A DNA stretch of 21,593 nt from a virus, in IMG/VR virus record IMGVR_UViG_3300008448_000784, positions 1-21,593 of that record. The stretch is one strand, 5' to 3'. The notes beneath the pieces are model-generated. The model was given only the letters and a program-made list of their open reading frames with translations. It was not told the origin of the DNA and did not search any database. Below, one piece after another: positions 4,463 through 20,483 of the stretch. Within the stretch, counting starts at the first letter, position 1; the number at the start of each line of letters is the position of its first letter. Both the position numbers and the translations under genes were made by a program.

Positions 4463-6376
4463 TTACGCCGTGATGCCGGTCACAAAGACACCGGCACCGC
4501 TAGTGCCAGCGACGCCCGCCGTCGTGTAGTATCCTGGTGATGTGATCGCCACGCTGTTGATCTGCACCTTGTTTGTCGCGCCACCGCTGATGGCGGCTGA
4601 GTTAAACAGGGTGGGGTCGATGGTTGCGCGGTTCAACGCCGTGCCGACGCTAAACACGCCTTGGCCAAATTTGGTCGCAGCGCCATCCACAACCGGTGCG
4701 ATAAAGCAGTCAACAGCAGAGTTGATGTTTACCGCTGCCGATCCGCCGTTACCCGTGTTCGGGTTGTTGATCGTAGCGCGGACTTCGCAGCCTGCCGATC
4801 CGCCGTCGATGACAACCGGGTTGTAAAAATCTTCAACAATGGTGTTGCTGCTAACGCGCACGTTTGATTGCCCGCTGATGTAGATGCCGTAGTTGGTGGT
4901 GCCTGTGCCGCTCAAAAGCTGGATACCGCCGCCAATAGAGACGGAACCAGCGTTTGAGCTTCCTGTCAGCCAAATACCCTTACCGGTGGCCCCCGTGTCG
5001 TTGACCTGCGCGTAACCGCCATCAATAGTGACCATACCCATATCGTTAAGCGCGTTTATGTAAATGCCGTTCTGGCTGCACTGATCCAAAACGCAGTCGC
5101 GGATATGCAAGTTGAGCCGGCTGGCCCCAGAGTTTGCACCAGTTCCATCAACGAGAATGCCGGTGTGCATAGCGGAAGTTTCAAACTTGTCGATGAACAT
5201 ATCCGAGAAGTTGCCGTTTGTGTAGAAGCCTGTCGGGTTGACCAGCACCGGAGCGCCGCCAATGTTGACGCTGCACCGGTTCATAAACAGCGACGGGTTG
5301 CCGCCGGTCAAAATCGCGGGGATGCCTTGCGCCCAGAACCCACGGAAAAAGTCGTTCAGGCCGCCGTAAGAATTTGACCGAAAAACGGCGCAATCATCAA
5401 ACTTGGTGTAGACGGTGCCGTACAGGTAGAAACCGATGATCGGCTCCCACGCAGCAAGATTTTTGAACTGGCAGCTGAGAACGTAGTTGATAAGCCACGC
5501 CTTGACCGCGGTGCTTTCGCTGCCCGATGCAGGCGGCGTCAACGCCGCAGCCCACCGCGCGCAGACGTTTTCAACCGTGATGTTGCGGAAGTAAAAACTG
5601 GTGCCGCCGCCGGGAGGGCTGTCGGGGCCGACCTGAATGACGTTAGCCGCCGTATCAAGAGACAGCACGCGGGTGCCAGTGCCAGTGTTGTAGCCGTCTG
5701 ACATGACGCCGCCGCGCACCGTGCGGTACTGGGTCTGGATTTTCCAAGTGCTGCTGATCCAGTAATCTGCGGTCTGCAAATTAGTGACCGGACACAGCAC
5801 AACGCACGCCTGGAGCGCAGCCAAGTTAGCTGCAGGAACACCACCAGAGTTTGAGTTTACGACAGCGCCGAACCACTCCGGGTAGCCGTTGATGTTGTCC
5901 CACTCGCGCTCCCAGTAGAAGTTGGCGGTGTTGGACGCAACGTAGATGCCCTGAAGCGGATCGCTTGGCGCGGTGCCTGCGCGGCAGATAAAGATGCCTT
6001 CGCGGCCAAGGGTGTTCACAAACACAATGTCGCCGGCAGCCGGCAGGATGGCGGGAAGGTTGGCGATGGTGGTCGTGGTAAACGACGCGATGCCTGGGAT
6101 GTTGTCCATCGTCCACAGCAGAATGTCGGTCGATGTGGTCAGCACAAACTTGTATGTGGTGTTGTTATCCAGCCACACCTGTGACGGCGGGCGCCCGGCT
6201 GAGTTCAGGATGATTGGGTTGGGGTTAGCTGTCACGCCGCTGATAGACGTGTAAGTCGGTGCCGGCGTCGATGTGCCTGCGGCGTAGGTATACAGCTTGC
6301 CGCCCGACAGCGGATCGCCGTTGTTGTCAAAAAATTGCCACCCAGCGCCGCCGAGAGATGAAAGATTAACAGCCAT
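4463..6376 (-). CDS. Tailspike with N-terminal virion-binding domain and beta-helix
   Basis: A 637-residue protein when started at the ATG at 6376, which has GAAGG about eight bases upstream. A longer in-frame start at 6454 adds 26 residues that do not look like tailspike and would overlap the upstream gene. Residues 8-95 (GGAGWQFFDNNGDPLSGGKLY, then PIILNSAGRPPSQVWLDNNTTYKFVL) resemble the head-binding domain of P22-type tailspikes. NGYPEWFGAV (about 160-170) marks the usual entry to the catalytic body. From about 230 to 560 short Gly/Asn-rich rungs (IRDCVLDQCSQNGIYI, VTIDGGYAQV, GIYISGQSNVRVSSNTI) fit a right-handed parallel beta-helix of the pectate-lyase type. It probably recognises and may cleave a host surface polysaccharide. 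Substrate and catalytic residues cannot be assigned. Confidence 0.8.
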   Translation of the reverse strand: MAVNLSSLGGAGWQFFDNNGDPLSGGKLYTYAAGTSTPAPTYTSISGVTANPNPIILNSAGRPPSQVWLDNNTTYKFVLTTSTDILLWTMDNIPGIASFTTTTIANLPAILPAAGDIVFVNTLGREGIFICRAGTAPSDPLQGIYVASNTANFYWEREWDNINGYPEWFGAVVNSNSGGVPAANLAALQACVVLCPVTNLQTADYWISSTWKIQTQYRTVRGGVMSDGYNTGTGTRVLSLDTAANVIQVGPDSPPGGGTSFYFRNITVENVCARWAAALTPPASGSESTAVKAWLINYVLSCQFKNLAAWEPIIGFYLYGTVYTKFDDCAVFRSNSYGGLNDFFRGFWAQGIPAILTGGNPSLFMNRCSVNIGGAPVLVNPTGFYTNGNFSDMFIDKFETSAMHTGILVDGTGANSGASRLNLHIRDCVLDQCSQNGIYINALNDMGMVTIDGGYAQVNDTGATGKGIWLTGSSNAGSVSIGGGIQLLSGTGTTNYGIYISGQSNVRVSSNTIVEDFYNPVVIDGGSAGCEVRATINNPNTGNGGSAAVNINSAVDCFIAPVVDGAATKFGQGVFSVGTALNRATIDPTLFNSAAISGGATNKVQINSVAITSPGYYTTAGVAGTSGAGVFVTGITA

Positions 6377-7872: not shown

Positions 7873-9302
7873 CAGGCCCGCGTCCCGCTCAGAATAAGTT
7901 CCGCACCCATGATGTAGATACGCACCGGGTCAGTACCCGACACCTCGTACACGCGGTCACGAATCTTCATCGTCGCGCCCAGGCGGCGCCAGATCGTGCG
8001 GTTCCCGTACTCGCCAATGCGGCCCATCGACTTCCAATGTTCGTTTGACCATGTGTGGCCGCCGTCGTCAGAGAAGCGCAGCATGACCTGTGGGTCGCTG
8101 CCTTGCCCGATGTTCAAGCCCACGCCCGTTTCGCAGTCTAGCTGCATTGCGTGCTGGATAGTGCGGGTCAGGTTGTTAGCGCCGGTTGGCAGCGCGCGCC
8201 ACGACCGCAGCCACTTCTGGATCGCGCCGTCGTCGGCATACACGTCCAGATCAAACTTGTAGATTTTGTTGTTCTGGTAATCGCCGATAACGGTTTCGCC
8301 GTTGAAGAACATTTGGCTGTTGCCGCGGTGCCGGTTAAACTCGCCGTTGGAAAACGAAGCGCGTTCGTGCCAAGCACCCGTTGCGACATCAAACACCCAA
8401 GTGGTGTCGGCGCTGGGGAAGTTGAGGACGTAGAAGCTGTGGCCGTCCTGCTGGTAGGTGTAGCCCACCGCGTCCGACAAATCGGTGTACTGCTGGAGTT
8501 GCCACTCGATAGCGTGCGTCGAGATGCGCTGGCCCATGTAGCCTGACGCCCGGAAGACCATACCTTGGCCGCGCGCGTCCTTACCAAGCCAATATATTTG
8601 GTTGTCCATCTTGGCGATGGAGTATGGTGCAGCGCAACCAAGTTCGTTGTACGCGCCTTGGATACGCGCCAAGGGAAAATCAAGCAGCCCGGCGTCATAC
8701 CAAACTTCGGTCGAGTTGGTGCCATAAACCCAGACTTCGCGGTGATCCACAAAGATTGCCACGACGTTGTCGGGGTTGCCTTCCGCGCTGGCAAACTCAA
8801 GCGGGTCAACGCTGGTGCCGTCAAGCAGCGACGTTACCCAAATTTTCTGTGAGTTAGGCTCGTTGAAAATGAAATAGCCGTCGAGATAGCCGACCGTTCC
8901 CGCGCCGGGGAAGTCTGGGTCGGTGATCTGTTGGAACACGTCGGTAGCGGCGTTGTAGATGTAGCCGTCTGGGTTAGCTGCGATAAAAAGCTGCGTGCCG
9001 TTGTCAGCCATGCTGACAGGGCCGCCACCGCCAACTGATCCTTTGGCCGTTGCGATCCAGTTCGTGTCGATCTGATACAGCGTGTTGCCCGACACGGCGT
9101 AGCCGTAATTACCGAACTGCCAAAGACCGCGAATGGGGCCGGTGCCAGCCGTCAACAGCCGCACCAGACCGGGTGCGCGCTGAAGGAACGCAGGCTCTTT
9201 GCCGCCTTCCGGTACGACTTCCGGAAAGAGATTGACCATGCGGTTGTCGGCGGCGTTGACGCTTCGAGCGACATAAGCGCTGCCCAAAATTGGGCTTTTC
9301 AT
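7872..9302 (-). CDS. Packaged DNA stabilisation protein, P22 gp10-like
   Basis: A 476-residue protein, close to P22 gp10 (472). The start KSPILGSAYVARSVNAADNRMVNLFPEVVP is the typical opening of this family. Repeated beta-blades follow (GLWQFGNYGYAVSGNTLYQI, VGYLDGYFIFNEPNSQKIWV, VAIFVDHREVWVYGTNSTEVW, YTYQQDGHSFYVLNFPS), consistent with a beta-propeller-like body. The end (RIYIMGAELILSGTRA) is also typical. In P22 this protein forms part of the tail hub between the gp4 ring and the needle and keeps DNA in the filled head. TGATG overlaps at both ends couple it to the gp4-like gene before and the tail protein after. Confidence 0.85.
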   Translation of the reverse strand: MKSPILGSAYVARSVNAADNRMVNLFPEVVPEGGKEPAFLQRAPGLVRLLTAGTGPIRGLWQFGNYGYAVSGNTLYQIDTNWIATAKGSVGGGGPVSMADNGTQLFIAANPDGYIYNAATDVFQQITDPDFPGAGTVGYLDGYFIFNEPNSQKIWVTSLLDGTSVDPLEFASAEGNPDNVVAIFVDHREVWVYGTNSTEVWYDAGLLDFPLARIQGAYNELGCAAPYSIAKMDNQIYWLGKDARGQGMVFRASGYMGQRISTHAIEWQLQQYTDLSDAVGYTYQQDGHSFYVLNFPSADTTWVFDVATGAWHERASFSNGEFNRHRGNSQMFFNGETVIGDYQNNKIYKFDLDVYADDGAIQKWLRSWRALPTGANNLTRTIQHAMQLDCETGVGLNIGQGSDPQVMLRFSDDGGHTWSNEHWKSMGRIGEYGNRTIWRRLGATMKIRDRVYEVSGTDPVRIYIMGAELILSGTRA

Positions 9303-10012
9303 CAGTAATTGCCCGCGAAGATGTTAAACCGCTGGCGCGTTGCCACGAGGCTGTACGGCATGGACATGATGTCGTCAGGGTTGTTGATACGCTTCAGGTT
9401 GCGCTTGCTGGTCATGGCGATACGCGACACTTGTGGGCTTGGCTCCATACCAAACTCTGGCGCCATCTCGCAGGCAAGGTTGTAGCGAAACGCCCGCAGA
9501 TAGCCTGGCGGAAACGTCAGTTCGGTTGACAGCAGCGCCGGCTTGGTCAGTTCCTCGACGGAGATGAAGTGCCATTCCAACTCGCGGGTGGGCCGCGGGT
9601 AGATGTACATCTCCACGTCAGGGAACGTGTTGTTGACGAAGATCACTTGCGGGAAGGTTGACGTGACCGTCTTGACCGCAATCCCGTTGTACTGCTGCTG
9701 GTTAATAAACTTGATGCCGTAGCTGATGCCGGTGCTGGCGTCGCGGAAGTAGGTGCTGTCGTCCAGCAACACCGGGCGATTGCCGACGAAGTCGCCGGTT
9801 GGCCCCAGTGTGCGCGACAGCAGGCCCGCGGGCCATGTGAACACCTGATCCTGCGTGCAAAACACAGCTAGACGCTCTGTGTTCCAGCTATCAATCATCT
9901 GGTTCATGGCGTTCAGCGCGTCCTGCGACGTTTCCGCAGACGGCACTTCGCCTTCGGCCAGGACACCCAAAAGCCGCAGTGACCCGTTGATGATGTCGCC
10001 GGCAGTCGTCAT
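9302..10012 (-). CDS. Head-tail adaptor / packaged DNA stabilisation protein, P22 gp4-like
   Basis: A 236-residue protein. The N-terminal helices TTAGDIINGSLRLLGVLAEGE and AETSQDALNAMNQMIDSWNTE match the four-helix core of P22 gp4-type adaptor proteins, which bind beneath the portal after packaging. The region after residue 80 (YGIKFINQQQYNGIAV, FPDVEMYIYPRPTRELEWHFI) and the C-terminal helix (PGYLRAFRYNLACEMAPEFG) are also usual for the larger members of this family. P22 gp4 is shorter (166 residues). The gene follows the AT-hook-like gene by three bases and its stop overlaps the gp10-like start. Confidence 0.8.
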   Translation of the reverse strand: MTTAGDIINGSLRLLGVLAEGEVPSAETSQDALNAMNQMIDSWNTERLAVFCTQDQVFTWPAGLLSRTLGPTGDFVGNRPVLLDDSTYFRDASTGISYGIKFINQQQYNGIAVKTVTSTFPQVIFVNNTFPDVEMYIYPRPTRELEWHFISVEELTKPALLSTELTFPPGYLRAFRYNLACEMAPEFGMEPSPQVSRIAMTSKRNLKRINNPDDIMSMPYSLVATRQRFNIFAGNY

Positions 10013-10015
10013 TGG

Positions 10016-10222
10016 TTAGCCTTCCAGCTTCGCGCGGGGGCGTCCACGCCGCTTCGGTGCCGCCATCTCGTTGACGATCTCATCCTCGTCATCGTCCGTC
10101 ACCACAGATGACGTGTTCACATCATAGCGTTCCCAGCCGTCCATTGCATCCAAATTCGCTTCCTCGTTGGAAATCGCAACCTTGGCGCCGTGCGCCGGGT
10201 GAACCAAGTAGATGACAGCCAT
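10016..10222 (-). CDS. Small acidic protein with C-terminal AT-hook-like motif
   Basis: A 68-residue protein. The N-terminus MAVIYLVHPAHGAKVAISNEEA resembles small phage proteins that often sit beside coat or adaptor genes. The middle is acidic (VVTDDDEDEIVNEM) and the last 14 residues are basic, PKRRGRPRAKLEG, containing the GRP core of an AT-hook. It may touch DNA or a packaged-DNA surface, but this is inferred from the motif alone. It lies between the third hairpin after the coat gene and the gp4-like gene. Confidence 0.7.
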   Translation of the reverse strand: MAVIYLVHPAHGAKVAISNEEANLDAMDGWERYDVNTSSVVTDDDEDEIVNEMAAPKRRGRPRAKLEG

Positions 10223-10237
10223 AGAAACTCCGTAAAA

Positions 10238-10259
10238 TGGGCGGCCCGAAGGCCGCCCA
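10238..10259 (-). terminator. GC-rich hairpin with UUCG loop (third of three)
   Basis: On the minus strand, stem TGGGCGGCC, loop TTCG, stem GGCCGCCCA written from its complement: nine perfect pairs, followed by ATTTTACGG. It lies directly after the stop of the 106-residue gene. The stem, stable tetraloop and short T-run suggest a partial intrinsic terminator or an RNA 3'-end stabiliser. Confidence 0.7.
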
Positions 10260-10264
10260 CTGTA

Positions 10265-10585
10265 TTAGCTGATCGCCATGAACTGCCACTTGGAGCCGTC
10301 CGAGTAGAACAGCTTGCCACGGCCAGTTGCGTTGGTGGTGATACCAAGCGAACCAACAGGGACTGAAGTGGTTGTCGTGTTGGCAGTGATTGCCGTGCTG
10401 AGAATGTACACGCCTGCGTCGGCGTTGCTGGCAACGGCGCCGCTGGCAGCGGTCGAAACAATCGAACCGCCCGTCACAGCGCCGGATGCCGTCACAGCGC
10501 CAGACGCTGTTACAGCGCCGGTGACGGCGACGCTTTCAAACTCAGGATCAGCGTAAGCAACGCCGACTGCTTTGGTGTTAGGCAT
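10265..10585 (-). CDS. Small beta-rich protein with six-residue repeats, possible head decoration/fibre
   Basis: A 106-residue protein. After MPNTKAVGVAYADPEFESV comes a repeated stretch (about residues 20-38) built on Ala-Ser-Gly-Ala-Val-Thr units, as in phage fibre stems. The C-terminus GRGKLFYSDGSKWQFMAIS is a compact end typical of phage decoration or fibre proteins. A strong Shine-Dalgarno AGGAGA (10592-10597) lies six bases upstream of the ATG. The gene is boxed by hairpins: one before it, after the 137-residue gene, and one immediately after its own stop. Position just behind the coat gene suggests a capsid-surface or tail-joining role; this is inference. Confidence 0.65.
   Translation of the reverse strand: MPNTKAVGVAYADPEFESVAVTGAVTASGAVTASGAVTGGSIVSTAASGAVASNADAGVYILSTAITANTTTTSVPVGSLGITTNATGRGKLFYSDGSKWQFMAIS
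10471..10524 (-). repeat. Three 18-base tandem repeats
   Basis: Units at 10471-10488, 10489-10506 and 10507-10524 share the core (g)tcacagcgcc with a few changes (the last has gttacagcgcc). Each encodes six residues, giving the Ala-Ser-Gly-Ala-Val-Thr periodicity in the 106-residue protein. Copy number could vary between related phages. Confidence 0.75.
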
Positions 10586-10591
10586 TGTCTG

Positions 10592-10597
10592 TCTCCT
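10592..10597 (-). promoter_or_regulatory. Shine-Dalgarno site for the 106-residue protein
   Basis: AGGAGA on the minus strand, six bases from the ATG at 10585-10583. It lies just downstream of the second hairpin, so ribosomes must load here on whatever transcript passes that hairpin. Confidence 0.6.
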
Positions 10598-10604
10598 GAA
10601 AAGG

Positions 10605-10630
10605 TAGCCCCGACCCGAAGGCCGGGGCTA
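10605..10630 (-). terminator. GC-rich hairpin with UUCG loop (second of three)
   Basis: On the minus strand an 11-pair stem, TAGCCCCGGCC against GGTCGGGGCTA with one G-U pair, closes a TTCG loop and is followed by ACCTTTTCAGG. It starts six bases after the stop of the 137-residue gene. The T-run is short, so read-through is likely. Confidence 0.7.
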
Positions 10631-10635
10631 ACCCA

Positions 10636-11049
10636 TTAATTGACGCGGTACAGCGTCCAAGCGCCAACGTCAGACTTGCGGGCGATCATGGTCGCGCCGG
10701 TCGTGACCGGAACGGTCATGGTCAGCGAACCCGAAACCGTCCAGCCGGTGCCGGCAGCGATGATCGCAGTGCCGGACGACGTGCCGAGGTTGACCACACG
10801 GAACACGAACGACGTGCCAACCTTATCCGAGTTGGACAAAGCGGCTTCCAGCAGCGCCACAGTCGGCAGCGTGTAGGTTTGCGCCGAAGTGGCACCGCTG
10901 CCGACCAGCAGGATGCCGTTCAGCACTTGGGCCGCGGTCAGGGTTGCAGTCGAAGCAACCGAGAGCGGAAGCGGGATTGCGTCGATAAGCGGTTCGTCCA
11001 GGTTGCCATCGCCGACCTGATAACCACCGCCGCCATTGGGGAGAGACAT
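10636..11049 (-). CDS. Small beta-rich protein downstream of coat, possible decoration protein
   Basis: A 137-residue protein. After a Gly-rich start (SLPNGGGGYQVGDGNLDEPL) it is a run of Thr/Ala/Val/Leu strands (LTAAQVLNGILLVGSG, AQTYTLPTVALLEAAL, FVFRVVNLGTSSGTAIIAAGTG, SLTMTVPVTTGATMIARK) ending WTLYRVN. That arrangement, and location just after the coat gene, is common for phage head-decoration or head-fibre proteins. No named family can be claimed. AAAGGA lies about eight bases before the ATG. Hairpins lie on both sides of the gene, so its mRNA level can differ from that of coat. Confidence 0.65.
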   Translation of the reverse strand: MSLPNGGGGYQVGDGNLDEPLIDAIPLPLSVASTATLTAAQVLNGILLVGSGATSAQTYTLPTVALLEAALSNSDKVGTSFVFRVVNLGTSSGTAIIAAGTGWTVSGSLTMTVPVTTGATMIARKSDVGAWTLYRVN

Positions 11050-11072
11050 TGTAGAATCCTTTCAAAGAAGTT

Positions 11073-11094
11073 GGCCCCCGGCGAACCGGGGGCC
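11073..11094 (-). terminator. GC-rich hairpin with UUCG loop after the coat gene (first of three)
   Basis: On the minus strand GGCCCCCGG, loop TTCG, CCGGGGGCC: nine perfect pairs starting nine bases after the coat stop and followed by AACTTCTTT. It should act as an intrinsic terminator or as a stabiliser of the coat mRNA 3' end. Confidence 0.75.
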
Positions 11095-11103
11095 GGTTTC
11101 AGG

Positions 11104-12312
11104 TTAGCCCCAGATGCGGCAAGCCATCTGCGGACGGATCGTGCTGTAGCCATACAGAACGTCGATGCGGCAAGGCATACGGTCGTTGTTGATGTCGTAC
11201 TGACGAACGATACGCAGGCTGATGCCGTTATGCACCTGACGCGACGCCATATCGACACCCTGCGGCAGCAGAAGGTCGGCGGTAGCGAAGGTGATGGCGT
11301 CCTTGTGGTACACCAGGTTCTGCGCGTACTGGGTGCTGGCAGCGCCCACGAACACGACGGCCTTGCTGTTGCCCGGCAGCGAGTTGACAGTGGCCAGCGC
11401 GTTGGTAGCCGAGTAGACCGGCGCAACGGTGATGTTGCCAGCGCCCGAACCGTCCAACGTGACGTTGGCCAGTGCGACGAACTGGAACAGCGAACCAGTG
11501 CTTTCACGGGTCTGCGGGTTCACAGCGAAGCAGTCAGCCACGGTGAACACGTCACCAGCACGGACGGTAGCCGCTGCACCAGCGCCGGTGATGGCGATGG
11601 TGGTGGCGCCTTCAGCAGTGACAGCTGCCGAGGTCGTGCCGCCGGTGGCGGTACGCGAACCAGTGGTGTGCTGCTTGATCGACTGCGACATATTGATTTC
11701 GTCGAAACCAAGCACGCCGGTGCCCATCATGCCGTTCTTGAACTGCTTGCTGATGGTGTCGGTCGGGTTGAACAGGCCCTTCATGCCTTCAACCAGGCCA
11801 GCGTTGGCAGCCGGGTTGACCGTCGCGTAGCGCGGCGACATCACAGCGGCGTTTTCGTTCAGCTTCTGCTGGGCCTGAAGCAGAACCAGCGAAGTGGACG
11901 GGGTGGTGCCGGGAGTGCCGACCGTGTTGCCGATGGTGGCGTAGGCGTTGGCCACGTCAGCGTCGATGCTGGAGGCAAGCTGCGAGATACGCGGCTTCAG
12001 CACGCGCTCTGCGAAGTCGTCCAACTGCATCGTCAGTTCGGCGGTCGTGAAGTTCACGCCGATGTGCTTCTGGTTGGCAACGGTCAGTGTGGTGAACTGT
12101 TCGTTGTCATCCTGCACCTGAAGGGCAGCGCCGTCCGTGACCAGAGCGCGGTCGGGCAGACGGATACGCAGGGTCGAACCGATCTTGGCGCCTTCGACAG
12201 CGAAGCTGTCGTCGTACTGACGGTTGACGTTGCGGGTGAGCACGAGGTTGTTCTCAAGGATTTCAAGAGCCTTCCGCGTGATCATGTCGATAGTAAGAAT
12301 CGAGTTAGCCAT
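11104..12312 (-). CDS. Major coat protein, P22 gp5-like
   Basis: A 402-residue protein, slightly shorter than P22 coat (430). The N-terminus ANSILTIDMITRKALEILENNLVLTRNVNRQYDD and the following GSTLRIRLPDRALVTDG, FTTLTVANQKHIGVNFTTAELTMQLDDFAERVLKP are the recognised opening of the P22-type coat family, which has an HK97-like fold with an inserted domain. The centre (about 215-280) is rich in Ala/Gly/Thr/Val and may be the insertion region. The C-terminus MASRQVHNGISLRIVRQYDIN, PCRIDVLYGYSTIRPQMACRIWG is also typical. It follows the scaffold gene by 15 bases and is followed by a strong hairpin. It assembles around the scaffold into the procapsid shell. Confidence 0.9.
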   Translation of the reverse strand: MANSILTIDMITRKALEILENNLVLTRNVNRQYDDSFAVEGAKIGSTLRIRLPDRALVTDGAALQVQDDNEQFTTLTVANQKHIGVNFTTAELTMQLDDFAERVLKPRISQLASSIDADVANAYATIGNTVGTPGTTPSTSLVLLQAQQKLNENAAVMSPRYATVNPAANAGLVEGMKGLFNPTDTISKQFKNGMMGTGVLGFDEINMSQSIKQHTTGSRTATGGTTSAAVTAEGATTIAITGAGAAATVRAGDVFTVADCFAVNPQTRESTGSLFQFVALANVTLDGSGAGNITVAPVYSATNALATVNSLPGNSKAVVFVGAASTQYAQNLVYHKDAITFATADLLLPQGVDMASRQVHNGISLRIVRQYDINNDRMPCRIDVLYGYSTIRPQMACRIWG

Positions 12313-12327
12313 GGTGGTAGTCCCAAA

Positions 12328-18543: not shown

Positions 18544-18692
18544 CATTTGCCCTTTTTAGCTGTTTTGGCGCTGTCTTTGAACGCTTTTGCAGTCGGGGCG
18601 CCCTTGGTGCCCGGTTTACGCATCTTTTCGCCAGAACCGGCGGCAATCCGTTCTTTTTTGGCATGAATGTTGGCGTACAGACCCTTTTTCAC
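18543..18692 (-). CDS. Small Lys-rich phage protein (KGLYANIHAK type)
   Basis: A 49-residue protein when started at the GTG at 18692-18690, which overlaps the previous stop as GTGA and has GGTGG about eight bases upstream. An ATG at 18698 would add two residues but leaves too little room after that ribosome site. The sequence KKGLYANIHAKKERIAAGSG, then EKMRKPGTKGAPTAKAFKDS, is one I recognise from many phage genomes as a conserved short protein without a known role. It is extremely basic, with no long hydrophobic segment, and is probably partly disordered. Confidence 0.8.
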   Translation of the reverse strand: MKKGLYANIHAKKERIAAGSGEKMRKPGTKGAPTAKAFKDSAKTAKKGK

Positions 18693-18955
18693 GAGCATTT
18701 CCACCGTTTGAGGCTGGCTTTGGCACGTTCGCCATCCTTAGCCTTGGCTGCTACCGCGCCCATACGCGCACAAAACGACGCCTTACGCCCTGCGTCCGCC
18801 TTCGTCTTGGGGTTGGGCGCCGGCGGCTTCAGGTTTGACCCGGTTTCCCGGTTGTACTTCTCGCGGCCCTTGGCCGTCAGTCCCGCACCCTTGGACGCGG
18901 GGAGCTTTTCCCCACGCCCTACGGCCAACGAAACAGACTTCTTCTTGTCGGCCAC
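18689..18955 (-). CDS. Small basic phage protein with conserved RKASFCARM motif (DUF6321-type)
   Basis: An 88-residue protein starting at GTG (18955-18953), one base after the large terminase stop. The conserved parts are GAGLTAKGREKYNRETGSNL, then KPPAPNPKTKADAGRKASFC, ARMGAVAAKAKDGERAKASL and a closing KRWKCS. I associate this pattern with DUF6321 proteins of phages; the family number is from memory. The protein is basic with two Cys, one in SFCARM and one near the end. The function is unknown. It is the first of four short basic genes before the portal, and its stop overlaps the next start. Confidence 0.8.
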   Translation of the reverse strand: MADKKKSVSLAVGRGEKLPASKGAGLTAKGREKYNRETGSNLKPPAPNPKTKADAGRKASFCARMGAVAAKAKDGERAKASLKRWKCS

Positions 18956-18956
18956 G

Positions 18957-20483
18957 CTACGACCCCATCCAGCTTGTAGCTACACCGGCGGGAGAATACC
19001 CACCTCCGCGTTTCTTGTCAACGCGCCCTTCGCGGTGCGCCACTGGGAACGCGAACGTCACCGCGATGGCGTCGGCAGCGTCGGGTGACGCCAGCCCGCG
19101 GGCCTTCATATCCTTCTTTGACTCAAGGAACAGCGTGCCCTTGCTGTCCGGCTTTGTCTTCGGCCCGATCAGGTCAGACTTCAGGAAGCGGTCGTTTGGC
19201 ACGCTGGCTGTCTTGAGCCAGTCGCGCATGGCACCCCACATCTCGGCCCGCTTGTTGCCGTACATGAGTTGCTTCTGCGCCTTATTGCCGAAGTTGACGC
19301 CGCGCACCTTGTACCGCTGCTCCTTCAGCCGATCCACCACGCCTGCACCCAGGCCGCCCTCATCGACGACGGTCAGCGCGGGCTTGTACTCCTCGATGGC
19401 TTCGATGACGTGACCGACCACTTCCATCGTGTCAGCGCCGCGCAGCCGCTTGATGTCGATCAGGTCGCGTCCCTGCCGCACCGCGATGACAGTGGCGTCC
19501 GACCCGAACCGCGCCGGATCGACGCCGATGGTGATGGGCGCCGTCTCGTCCTTGTGCTTGGGCCGCTTCATGGCGTCGTCCACCAGATTGACCGGGATGA
19601 ACTGATCGTCGCCTTCTGATGGAAACTGACCGTACACTTCGACGTTGGCCTGGTAGCTGTCCGCGCCGTACTCGTCGATGATGCGCTGGTACAGGTTCTT
19701 GTCGGTTCCCTCGACCTCACGCGCGTCGATGTTGCTTGTGCGCCAGAAGCTGCGCTTGCTGTTGAACGTCTCGTAGAAGTAGCCGGTGTTGCGCCGCGGG
19801 TTGGAGAACGCGACGTGAAAGCGGTGCGGCGTGTTCTCCGTGAAGAAGCCGTCACTGACCGACCAGATGCTGTCGGGGATACCCGACGCTTCGTCGAAGA
19901 TCAGCATCACGCCATCCCAGTTGTGAACCCCGGCGTAGGCGTCCGGGTTCTCCTCCGACCACAGCCGGCCCTCGACGGCCCAGTAGCGCGTGCCTTTCTT
20001 GAGGTCGCGCTCGACCAGTTCCGTGATCCACTTGGCCGGCATGATGCGTGTGGCGGCGATCTCGAACCAGTGGCTGTTCAGCGCCATCGCCAGCCACTTG
20101 GTAATCTCGGCCCAGGTGACGCTGCGTAGCTGCGCCTCTGAGTTGGCCGACACGATGGTGGTCGATCCGATGCGCGTGGACAGCATCCAATGCACCAGCC
20201 AACTGACCAGCGCCGACTTGCCGATACCGCGGCCTGACGCCACCGCCTTGCGGAAGGTGTCGTAGTCCACCTTGCCTTGGTTGTCCTTGATGTGGTCGCG
20301 CAGGGTGCCCAGCACGTCGCGCTGCCATTTGCGCGGCCCTTTGAAGTGTTCCAGCGGCGTACCCGGCTCACCCCACGGGTAGGTCAGCAGCACGAACGCC
20401 AGCGGGTCATCCTTGATCGTCGGCGACCACAGCCGACTCATCAATTCCATTTCCTCGGCTGCTGAGTAGATTGGCTGCTGCAT
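18957..20483 (-). CDS. terL: Terminase large subunit
   Basis: A 508-residue protein (P22 gp2 is 499). The ATPase half shows a Walker A-type loop at 82-90 (ASGRGIGKS), Walker B at 191-198 (GVMLIFDE, with Asp197 and Glu198) and a coupling motif SNP at 227-229. The RNase H-like nuclease half has candidate metal ligands Asp322 (TIGVDPARFGSD), Asp374 (TVVDEGGLG) and Asp468/Asp471 (SPDAADAIAV). It translocates DNA into the procapsid through the portal and cuts it into genome lengths. The start overlaps the stop of the preceding 275-residue gene (TGATG), with no separate promoter visible. The motifs all appear intact. Confidence 0.93.
   Translation of the reverse strand: MQQPIYSAAEEMELMSRLWSPTIKDDPLAFVLLTYPWGEPGTPLEHFKGPRKWQRDVLGTLRDHIKDNQGKVDYDTFRKAVASGRGIGKSALVSWLVHWMLSTRIGSTTIVSANSEAQLRSVTWAEITKWLAMALNSHWFEIAATRIMPAKWITELVERDLKKGTRYWAVEGRLWSEENPDAYAGVHNWDGVMLIFDEASGIPDSIWSVSDGFFTENTPHRFHVAFSNPRRNTGYFYETFNSKRSFWRTSNIDAREVEGTDKNLYQRIIDEYGADSYQANVEVYGQFPSEGDDQFIPVNLVDDAMKRPKHKDETAPITIGVDPARFGSDATVIAVRQGRDLIDIKRLRGADTMEVVGHVIEAIEEYKPALTVVDEGGLGAGVVDRLKEQRYKVRGVNFGNKAQKQLMYGNKRAEMWGAMRDWLKTASVPNDRFLKSDLIGPKTKPDSKGTLFLESKKDMKARGLASPDAADAIAVTFAFPVAHREGRVDKKRGGGYSPAGVATSWMGS

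Follow-up and report, generated by a model that had tools for sequence, protein, structure and literature searches.

A conserved set of three UUCG-loop RNA hairpins behind the coat gene of a P22-like podovirus

The late messenger RNA of a P22-like podovirus, a virus of bacteria, contains intercistronic hairpins that are real and strongly conserved, one behind the coat gene and one behind each of the next two genes. They were found in a 21.6 kb fragment record, analysed over its full 21,593 nucleotides and called the window hereafter. The best single account, which we hold about as firmly as we doubt it, is that the hairpins work as weak (leaky) intrinsic terminators and would also yield protected 3' ends.

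The minus strand of the window bears virion genes in the order portal, scaffold, coat, small1, small2, small3, tail adaptor and head closure protein. PHROG matches name the portal, scaffold, coat, adaptor and closure genes. The P22-type coat (major capsid) gene, at 11104-12312, encodes 402 residues and was identified by PHROG 283 (major head protein, E 5.8e-74) and by tblastn to annotated P22-type coat genes. Its product is 77-78% identical to the coat of Phage DSL-LC05 and to that of a spring-water podovirus. Downstream of it lie small1 (10636-11049, 137 residues), small2 (10265-10585, 106 residues), small3 (10016-10222, 68 residues) and the P22 gp4-like tail adaptor (9302-10012; PHROG 637, head-tail adaptor Ad3, E 5e-12), all on the minus strand. 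The gap between small3 and the tail adaptor is only 3 nt and small3 has no hairpin behind it, so that this gene served as an internal negative control.

The small1 protein is predicted to be rich in beta structure (AlphaFold model, mean pLDDT 85.9). Its best solved match in Foldseek is a phage capsid spike, 9ny6_C, with a weak likeness (E 4e-5, TM 0.42, rmsd 10.8). The predicted fold is mostly a beta domain, and the spike match suggests a surface protein but gives no copy number. For small2, no PHROG match was found and the structure model was too poor for use (mean pLDDT 60.9). In P22/L-type phages, as in the window, a small gene precedes the tail adaptor. Comparison of small3 with P22 orf69 (BLASTP E 0.15) and with the small gene of PAE2 did not demonstrate homology.

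The spacers behind coat, small1 and small2 measure 54, 50 and 42 nt, and each wholly contains one hairpin with a UUCG loop, encoded on the coding strand at the place given in the earlier note. The post-coat hairpin H1 (11073-11094, minus strand) is a perfect stem of 9 GC pairs that starts 9 nt past the coat stop. It is followed by the tail AACUUCUUUG and by the AAAGGA Shine-Dalgarno (SD) sequence of small1, and thus lies, like the P22-like post-coat stem-loop, past the coat stop and ahead of the SD that serves the following gene. H2 (10605-10630, minus strand) starts 5 nt past the small1 stop, has 11 pairs including one G-U, and is followed by CCUUUUCAGGAG. H3 (10236-10261, minus strand) starts 3 nt past the small2 stop and has 11 pairs, with a 9-pair core at 10238-10259 and a UUUU tail. 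A short T-run had been described after each stem. It is present as TTTT behind H2 and H3, but the longest run in the H1 tail, AACTTCTTTG, is 3. With 9, 11 and 11 pairs and 4-nt loops, the stems are of the kind required of intrinsic terminators (GC-rich, at least 5 pairs, short loop). The canonical form of the UNCG tetraloop is cUUCGg, with a C-G closing pair. H2 and H3 have this form, unlike H1, whose loop is closed by G-C (gUUCGc).

Free-energy folding, proposed earlier as a check, gave -23.3, -26.5 and -22.9 kcal/mol for the three spacers, with z-scores of -2.67, -4.05 and -5.07. The surroundings of the next junction, between small3 and the adaptor, gave a z-score of +0.62. TNCG-loop stems with 9 pairs or more number 3 in the window, every one on the coding strand. 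Dinucleotide shuffling of the window, repeated 200 times, yielded on average 0.195 such stems for both strands together and never more than 2. These shuffles and the counts in relatives given below rule out a chance origin. Rfam returned 0 matches above the gathering score in the window, and the hairpins could thus not be identified with a known RNA family. The earlier remark that no stem this strong occurs elsewhere is correct for stems with TTCG loops and wrong for stems generally, as two same-strand stems with other loops, 18919-18893 (-20.7 kcal/mol) and 1454-1431 (-20.1 kcal/mol), are nearly as stable. The hairpins are therefore set apart by their loop, place and repetition taken together. 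The stem at 18893-18919 consists of 11 pairs with an AAAGC loop, lacks a T-run, and is located between one ORF that ends at 18664 and another that starts at 18957; it may sit in an uncalled small gene.

Comparison with related phages strengthened the case. Relatives were taken from IMG/VR as the best 80 of at least 600 candidate loci (coat identity 97% to 88%), plus 2 named phages. We counted distinct 45-nt post-stop stretches, window included, and scored a hairpin where a mismatch-free stem of -8 kcal/mol or better was found. Among these best 80 of at least 600 loci, the hairpin is kept in 59/66 stretches after coat, 67/69 after small1 and 51/54 after small2, with the stems rewritten, versus only 1/39 after small3. 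In shuffled post-stop stretches, a hairpin appears in 3-5%. Phage DSL-LC05 carries two of the hairpins. For the third site, simple gene chaining recovered 33 spacers and missed some, and the post-stop count covers 62 loci, 54 of them distinct. Left out of the spacer counts were L003, with 7 nt after coat, and two short contigs in which the hairpin is visible (L077, L079). One locus, L034, was scored as lacking the first hairpin because the count demanded a mismatch-free stem; by eye, it has one C-A mismatch.

Stem sequences diverge strongly between subgroups, between relatives and between sites. Placement is kept: the stems begin 0-10 nt past the stop, with a single case at 16, and leave the SD free. 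The loop is a UNCG in 50/59, 50/67 and 35/51 of the distinct hairpins at the first, second and third site, that is in 135/177 overall, again among the best 80 of at least 600 loci. At the third site, 11 distinct relatives (for instance L021, L047 and L063) have instead a GGGGG-CCCCC stem capped by a 7-nt loop, CTAATCA, a recurrent alternative counted at this site only. The existence of several loops, this one included, disfavours a loop-specific binding protein. We also scanned both strands of 26 loci of at least 9 kb (239 kb in all) for UNCG hairpins of -12 kcal/mol or better. All 52 of the 52 found lie in these spacers and on the sense strand; none occurs outside them on either strand of the 239 kb. 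This confinement to spacers and to the sense strand argues for selection on RNA, not DNA.

The set is not invariant. Seven loci (L039, L044, L045 and L070-L073) lack the post-coat hairpin, with gene order kept, and have a spacer of just 23-28 nt; three of them (L070, L071 and L073) also lack the third hairpin. Loss of this kind had been named beforehand as the outcome that would speak against the proposal of terminators, and for the post-coat site it does occur. In seven loci small2 is absent, and the merged spacer still has one hairpin in 7/7. Losses and merged spacers together indicate that the hairpins track the spacers between the small genes, yet that any step can be lost. Two further observations concern the same region. 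In L008, L011, L050 and L053, small1 is swapped for a shorter protein of 83 residues, with both flanking hairpins retained. In many relatives (L017, L018, L019, L021, L023, L042, L049, L061, L063, L069, L080 and others), an extra UUCG stem, such as TTTCTGGCGG-TTCG-CTGTCAGAAG, lies within the small2 coding region, about 840-910 nt past the coat stop and ~60 nt before the third hairpin. It is G-C closed and weaker than -12 kcal/mol, and may reflect coding constraint alone.

Covariation was evaluated at the first two sites in alignments of 27 and 20 spacers, each including the window; an alignment for the third site was kept outside the counts. Both alignments were limited to the subgroup of the window because the remaining spacers align poorly. 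At the first site, pairing is intact in 97.0% of cells, and changes on both sides are seen in 6 of the 9 pairs (26 distinct rows including the window), a result that 0 of 500 shuffles matched. At the second site, pairing is intact in 96.7% of cells, with a covariation score that exceeds those of all 500 shuffles (20 rows); the number of double-change pairs there is 2, which was equalled in 40 of the 500. The alignments thus argue that the hairpins are under selection as RNA structures and are preserved by compensatory change.

Hairpins at this place have precedents. In P22 (NC_002371), a putative stem-loop is annotated at 6102-6119 after coat gene 5, with a GC stem that starts 5 nt past the stop and a T-tract, and the record mentions that HK97 and lambda have stem-loops in this position. 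For phages L, c341 and Emek, a terminator is annotated after coat, at the same place as H1. The loop is UGCG in P22 and UUCG in L, both of the UNCG class found in the window. The known P22-type case differs in having one hairpin with a 6-pair stem and a better T-tract, whereas the window has three hairpins with longer stems. More distant relatives were sampled as 9 of the 38 P22-type records with a coat identity under 60%. All 9 have a post-coat hairpin no weaker than -11.9 kcal/mol, with a UUCG loop in 3. One of the 9, PBR31, has an additional hairpin before coat.

Outside the P22 type, HK97 has four putative terminators from gp5 to the tape measure gene, which are coat-proximal and repeated in the head-tail run, as in the window. 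They differ in their loops (GAAA, AGAT, UUGU and AUCA) and in being spread over 3 kb, and their annotation is putative only. Lambda has a 7-pair UUCG hairpin 2 nt past the stop of its coat gene E, similar to H1 in loop and place, but this hairpin is single and carries no annotation in the stretch of the record that we looked at. In T7, Tphi follows gene 10 directly, as one step only; it is used by the phage RNA polymerase. A directly post-coat terminator in a single step is also found in LUZ100, for which passages of a published study describe an apparent strong terminator just past the coat gene and a phage-specific promoter for that gene (PMC10134795). For phage L, partial termination at the post-coat site was proposed in a section of PMC8022706. 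The capsid genes of phiX174 are presented, in part of a modelling paper, as an alternating series of genes and terminators with transcripts falling stepwise (PMC9135205). This unrelated small ssDNA phage has reported transcript steps, whereas those of the window are predicted. The arrangement in the window is a three-step, UNCG-rich elaboration of the post-coat stem-loop already annotated in P22, L, HK97 and T7. Leaky post-coat terminators are an established or published idea for other phages.

Whether the hairpins terminate transcription depends in part on what follows them. At sites 2 and 3, the fraction of distinct hairpins with T at positions +2 to +5 after the GC core is 0.67-0.88, versus a background of 0.25-0.34. 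A terminator score is above 0 in 49/59, 66/67 and 41/51 distinct hairpins at the three sites (156/177 in total). Comparable tracts, however, occur where there is no hairpin. Most post-coat spacers devoid of a hairpin retain a tract resembling CTTTT or ACTTTTT ahead of the SD. Regions upstream of coat, in the 35 distinct loci in which the coat start was found, have 80-86% T at four positions shortly ahead of the SD and carry no post-stop hairpin of this kind. A T-run is therefore not a specific sign of termination; the tract may belong to ribosome binding, and after these two controls we abandoned T-runs as proof of termination. Many relatives (L009, L021, L030, L031 and others) have a run of 5-7 T directly ahead of the coat SD, about 12-20 nt upstream of coat, which is possibly a U-rich translation enhancer. 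The window has no such run upstream of its coat gene (12313-12327).

In the subgroup to which the window belongs, T residues in the first 7 nt average 2.76 at the post-coat site, 3.88 behind small1 and 4.42 behind small2. Site 1 differs from site 2 or 3 with a Mann-Whitney p below 1e-6, a value that is inexact because the sequences are related. In the other subgroup, the T count of site 1 is below that of site 2 and not below that of site 3 (p 0.54). Median stem energies in the window's subgroup are strongest at site 1 (-19.0 kcal/mol, versus -18.8 and -15.3). The post-coat hairpin of this subgroup, at the site for which the largest step would be expected, thus seems the weakest terminator of all three despite the strongest stem. 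This is at odds with a large first step, but would suit a leaky step or a protector of 3' ends.

As leaky terminators, the hairpins would each release a fraction of the transcripts just past coat, small1 or small2, while the remaining transcripts would read on into the tail adaptor genes, whose expression would be lowered. Released and processed mRNAs would end in an unusually stable UNCG hairpin, expected to slow 3'-to-5' decay; the hairpins probably trim or protect messenger RNA. Because the stems start within about 10 nt of the stop, a terminating ribosome should overlap the stem, and this might partly account for incomplete termination. The earlier proposal of leaky terminators is thus upheld in part; the falling virion copy numbers to which it matched the hairpins are an assumption. 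Termination is made plausible by the placement in spacers only and on the sense strand, by three sites kept and the fourth not, by covariation, by the mostly terminator-like scores with T enrichment at sites 2 and 3, and, by analogy, by a terminator or stem-loop annotated at the same position in P22, L, c341, Emek, HK97 and T7, by the LUZ100 terminator and by the phiX174 ladder. It is weakened by SD-linked T-tracts without hairpins, by the poor tract of H1, by the relatives devoid of a post-coat hairpin, and by antitermination of the late operon in lambdoid phages that have such hairpins. A stronger version appears unlikely to us, namely a tuned expression ladder in which, across this large group of P22-like phages, almost all genes inserted between coat and adaptor bring their own hairpin, the upstream ribosome gates termination, and the hairpins alone set virion stoichiometry from a single late transcript.

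Several of these observations would also follow if the hairpins did not terminate at all but barred 3'-to-5' exonucleases, stabilising the coat, small1 and small2 segments to unequal extents after endonuclease cuts. We regard this as possible, if tentatively so. Segmental stabilisers of mRNA of the puf or REP type are known, and UNCG loops confer extra stability on RNA. Retention of the loop class while the stems are rewritten favours such a barrier, as does the combination in H1 of a strong stem with a poor T-tract, and the ribosome site can explain the T-tract where one is present. A barrier needs no T-tract, however, and sites 2 and 3 have one right at the stem. The lambdoid late operon is described in part of PMC8022706 as antiterminated; hairpins there may therefore not stop the polymerase, and lambda and P22 have one nevertheless. 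A further alternative is terminators that would stop only stray transcripts devoid of the late antitermination complex and would leave proper late transcription largely unaffected. A section of the same paper (PMC8022706) already suggests this function for the post-coat site of phage L. For the window it seems quite improbable, as antitermination in this phage is putative, the record being a 21.6 kb fragment, and such a purpose would hardly call for three stops within 900 bp.

The geometry of the spacers could instead point to translation. Rigid hairpins would then block ribosome sliding or re-initiation and keep the next site open, with coat and small1-3 initiating independently and small3 coupled to the adaptor. 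Spacers of roughly 40-60 nt filled by hairpins, their absence where genes nearly touch, and stems close to the stop with an unobstructed SD would agree with such insulators. The hairpin-less relatives, in which a plain post-coat spacer of 23-28 nt suggests that independent initiation is possible without a hairpin, make this very doubtful. Recombination or cassette boundaries at the DNA level, enabling gain and loss of small genes, are barely credible: the hairpin retained in all loci without small2 would suit them, but stem sequences vary between sites and relatives, and DNA exchange would not require the constant sense-strand orientation of the strong UNCG stems.

The role of terminators within phage late operons is called unknown in a passage of the phage L study (PMC8022706). 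The family described here offers 177 distinct natural hairpins, three matched sites, an internal negative control and relatives with one step lost. With such a set, partial termination and mRNA protection would be directly testable against each other.
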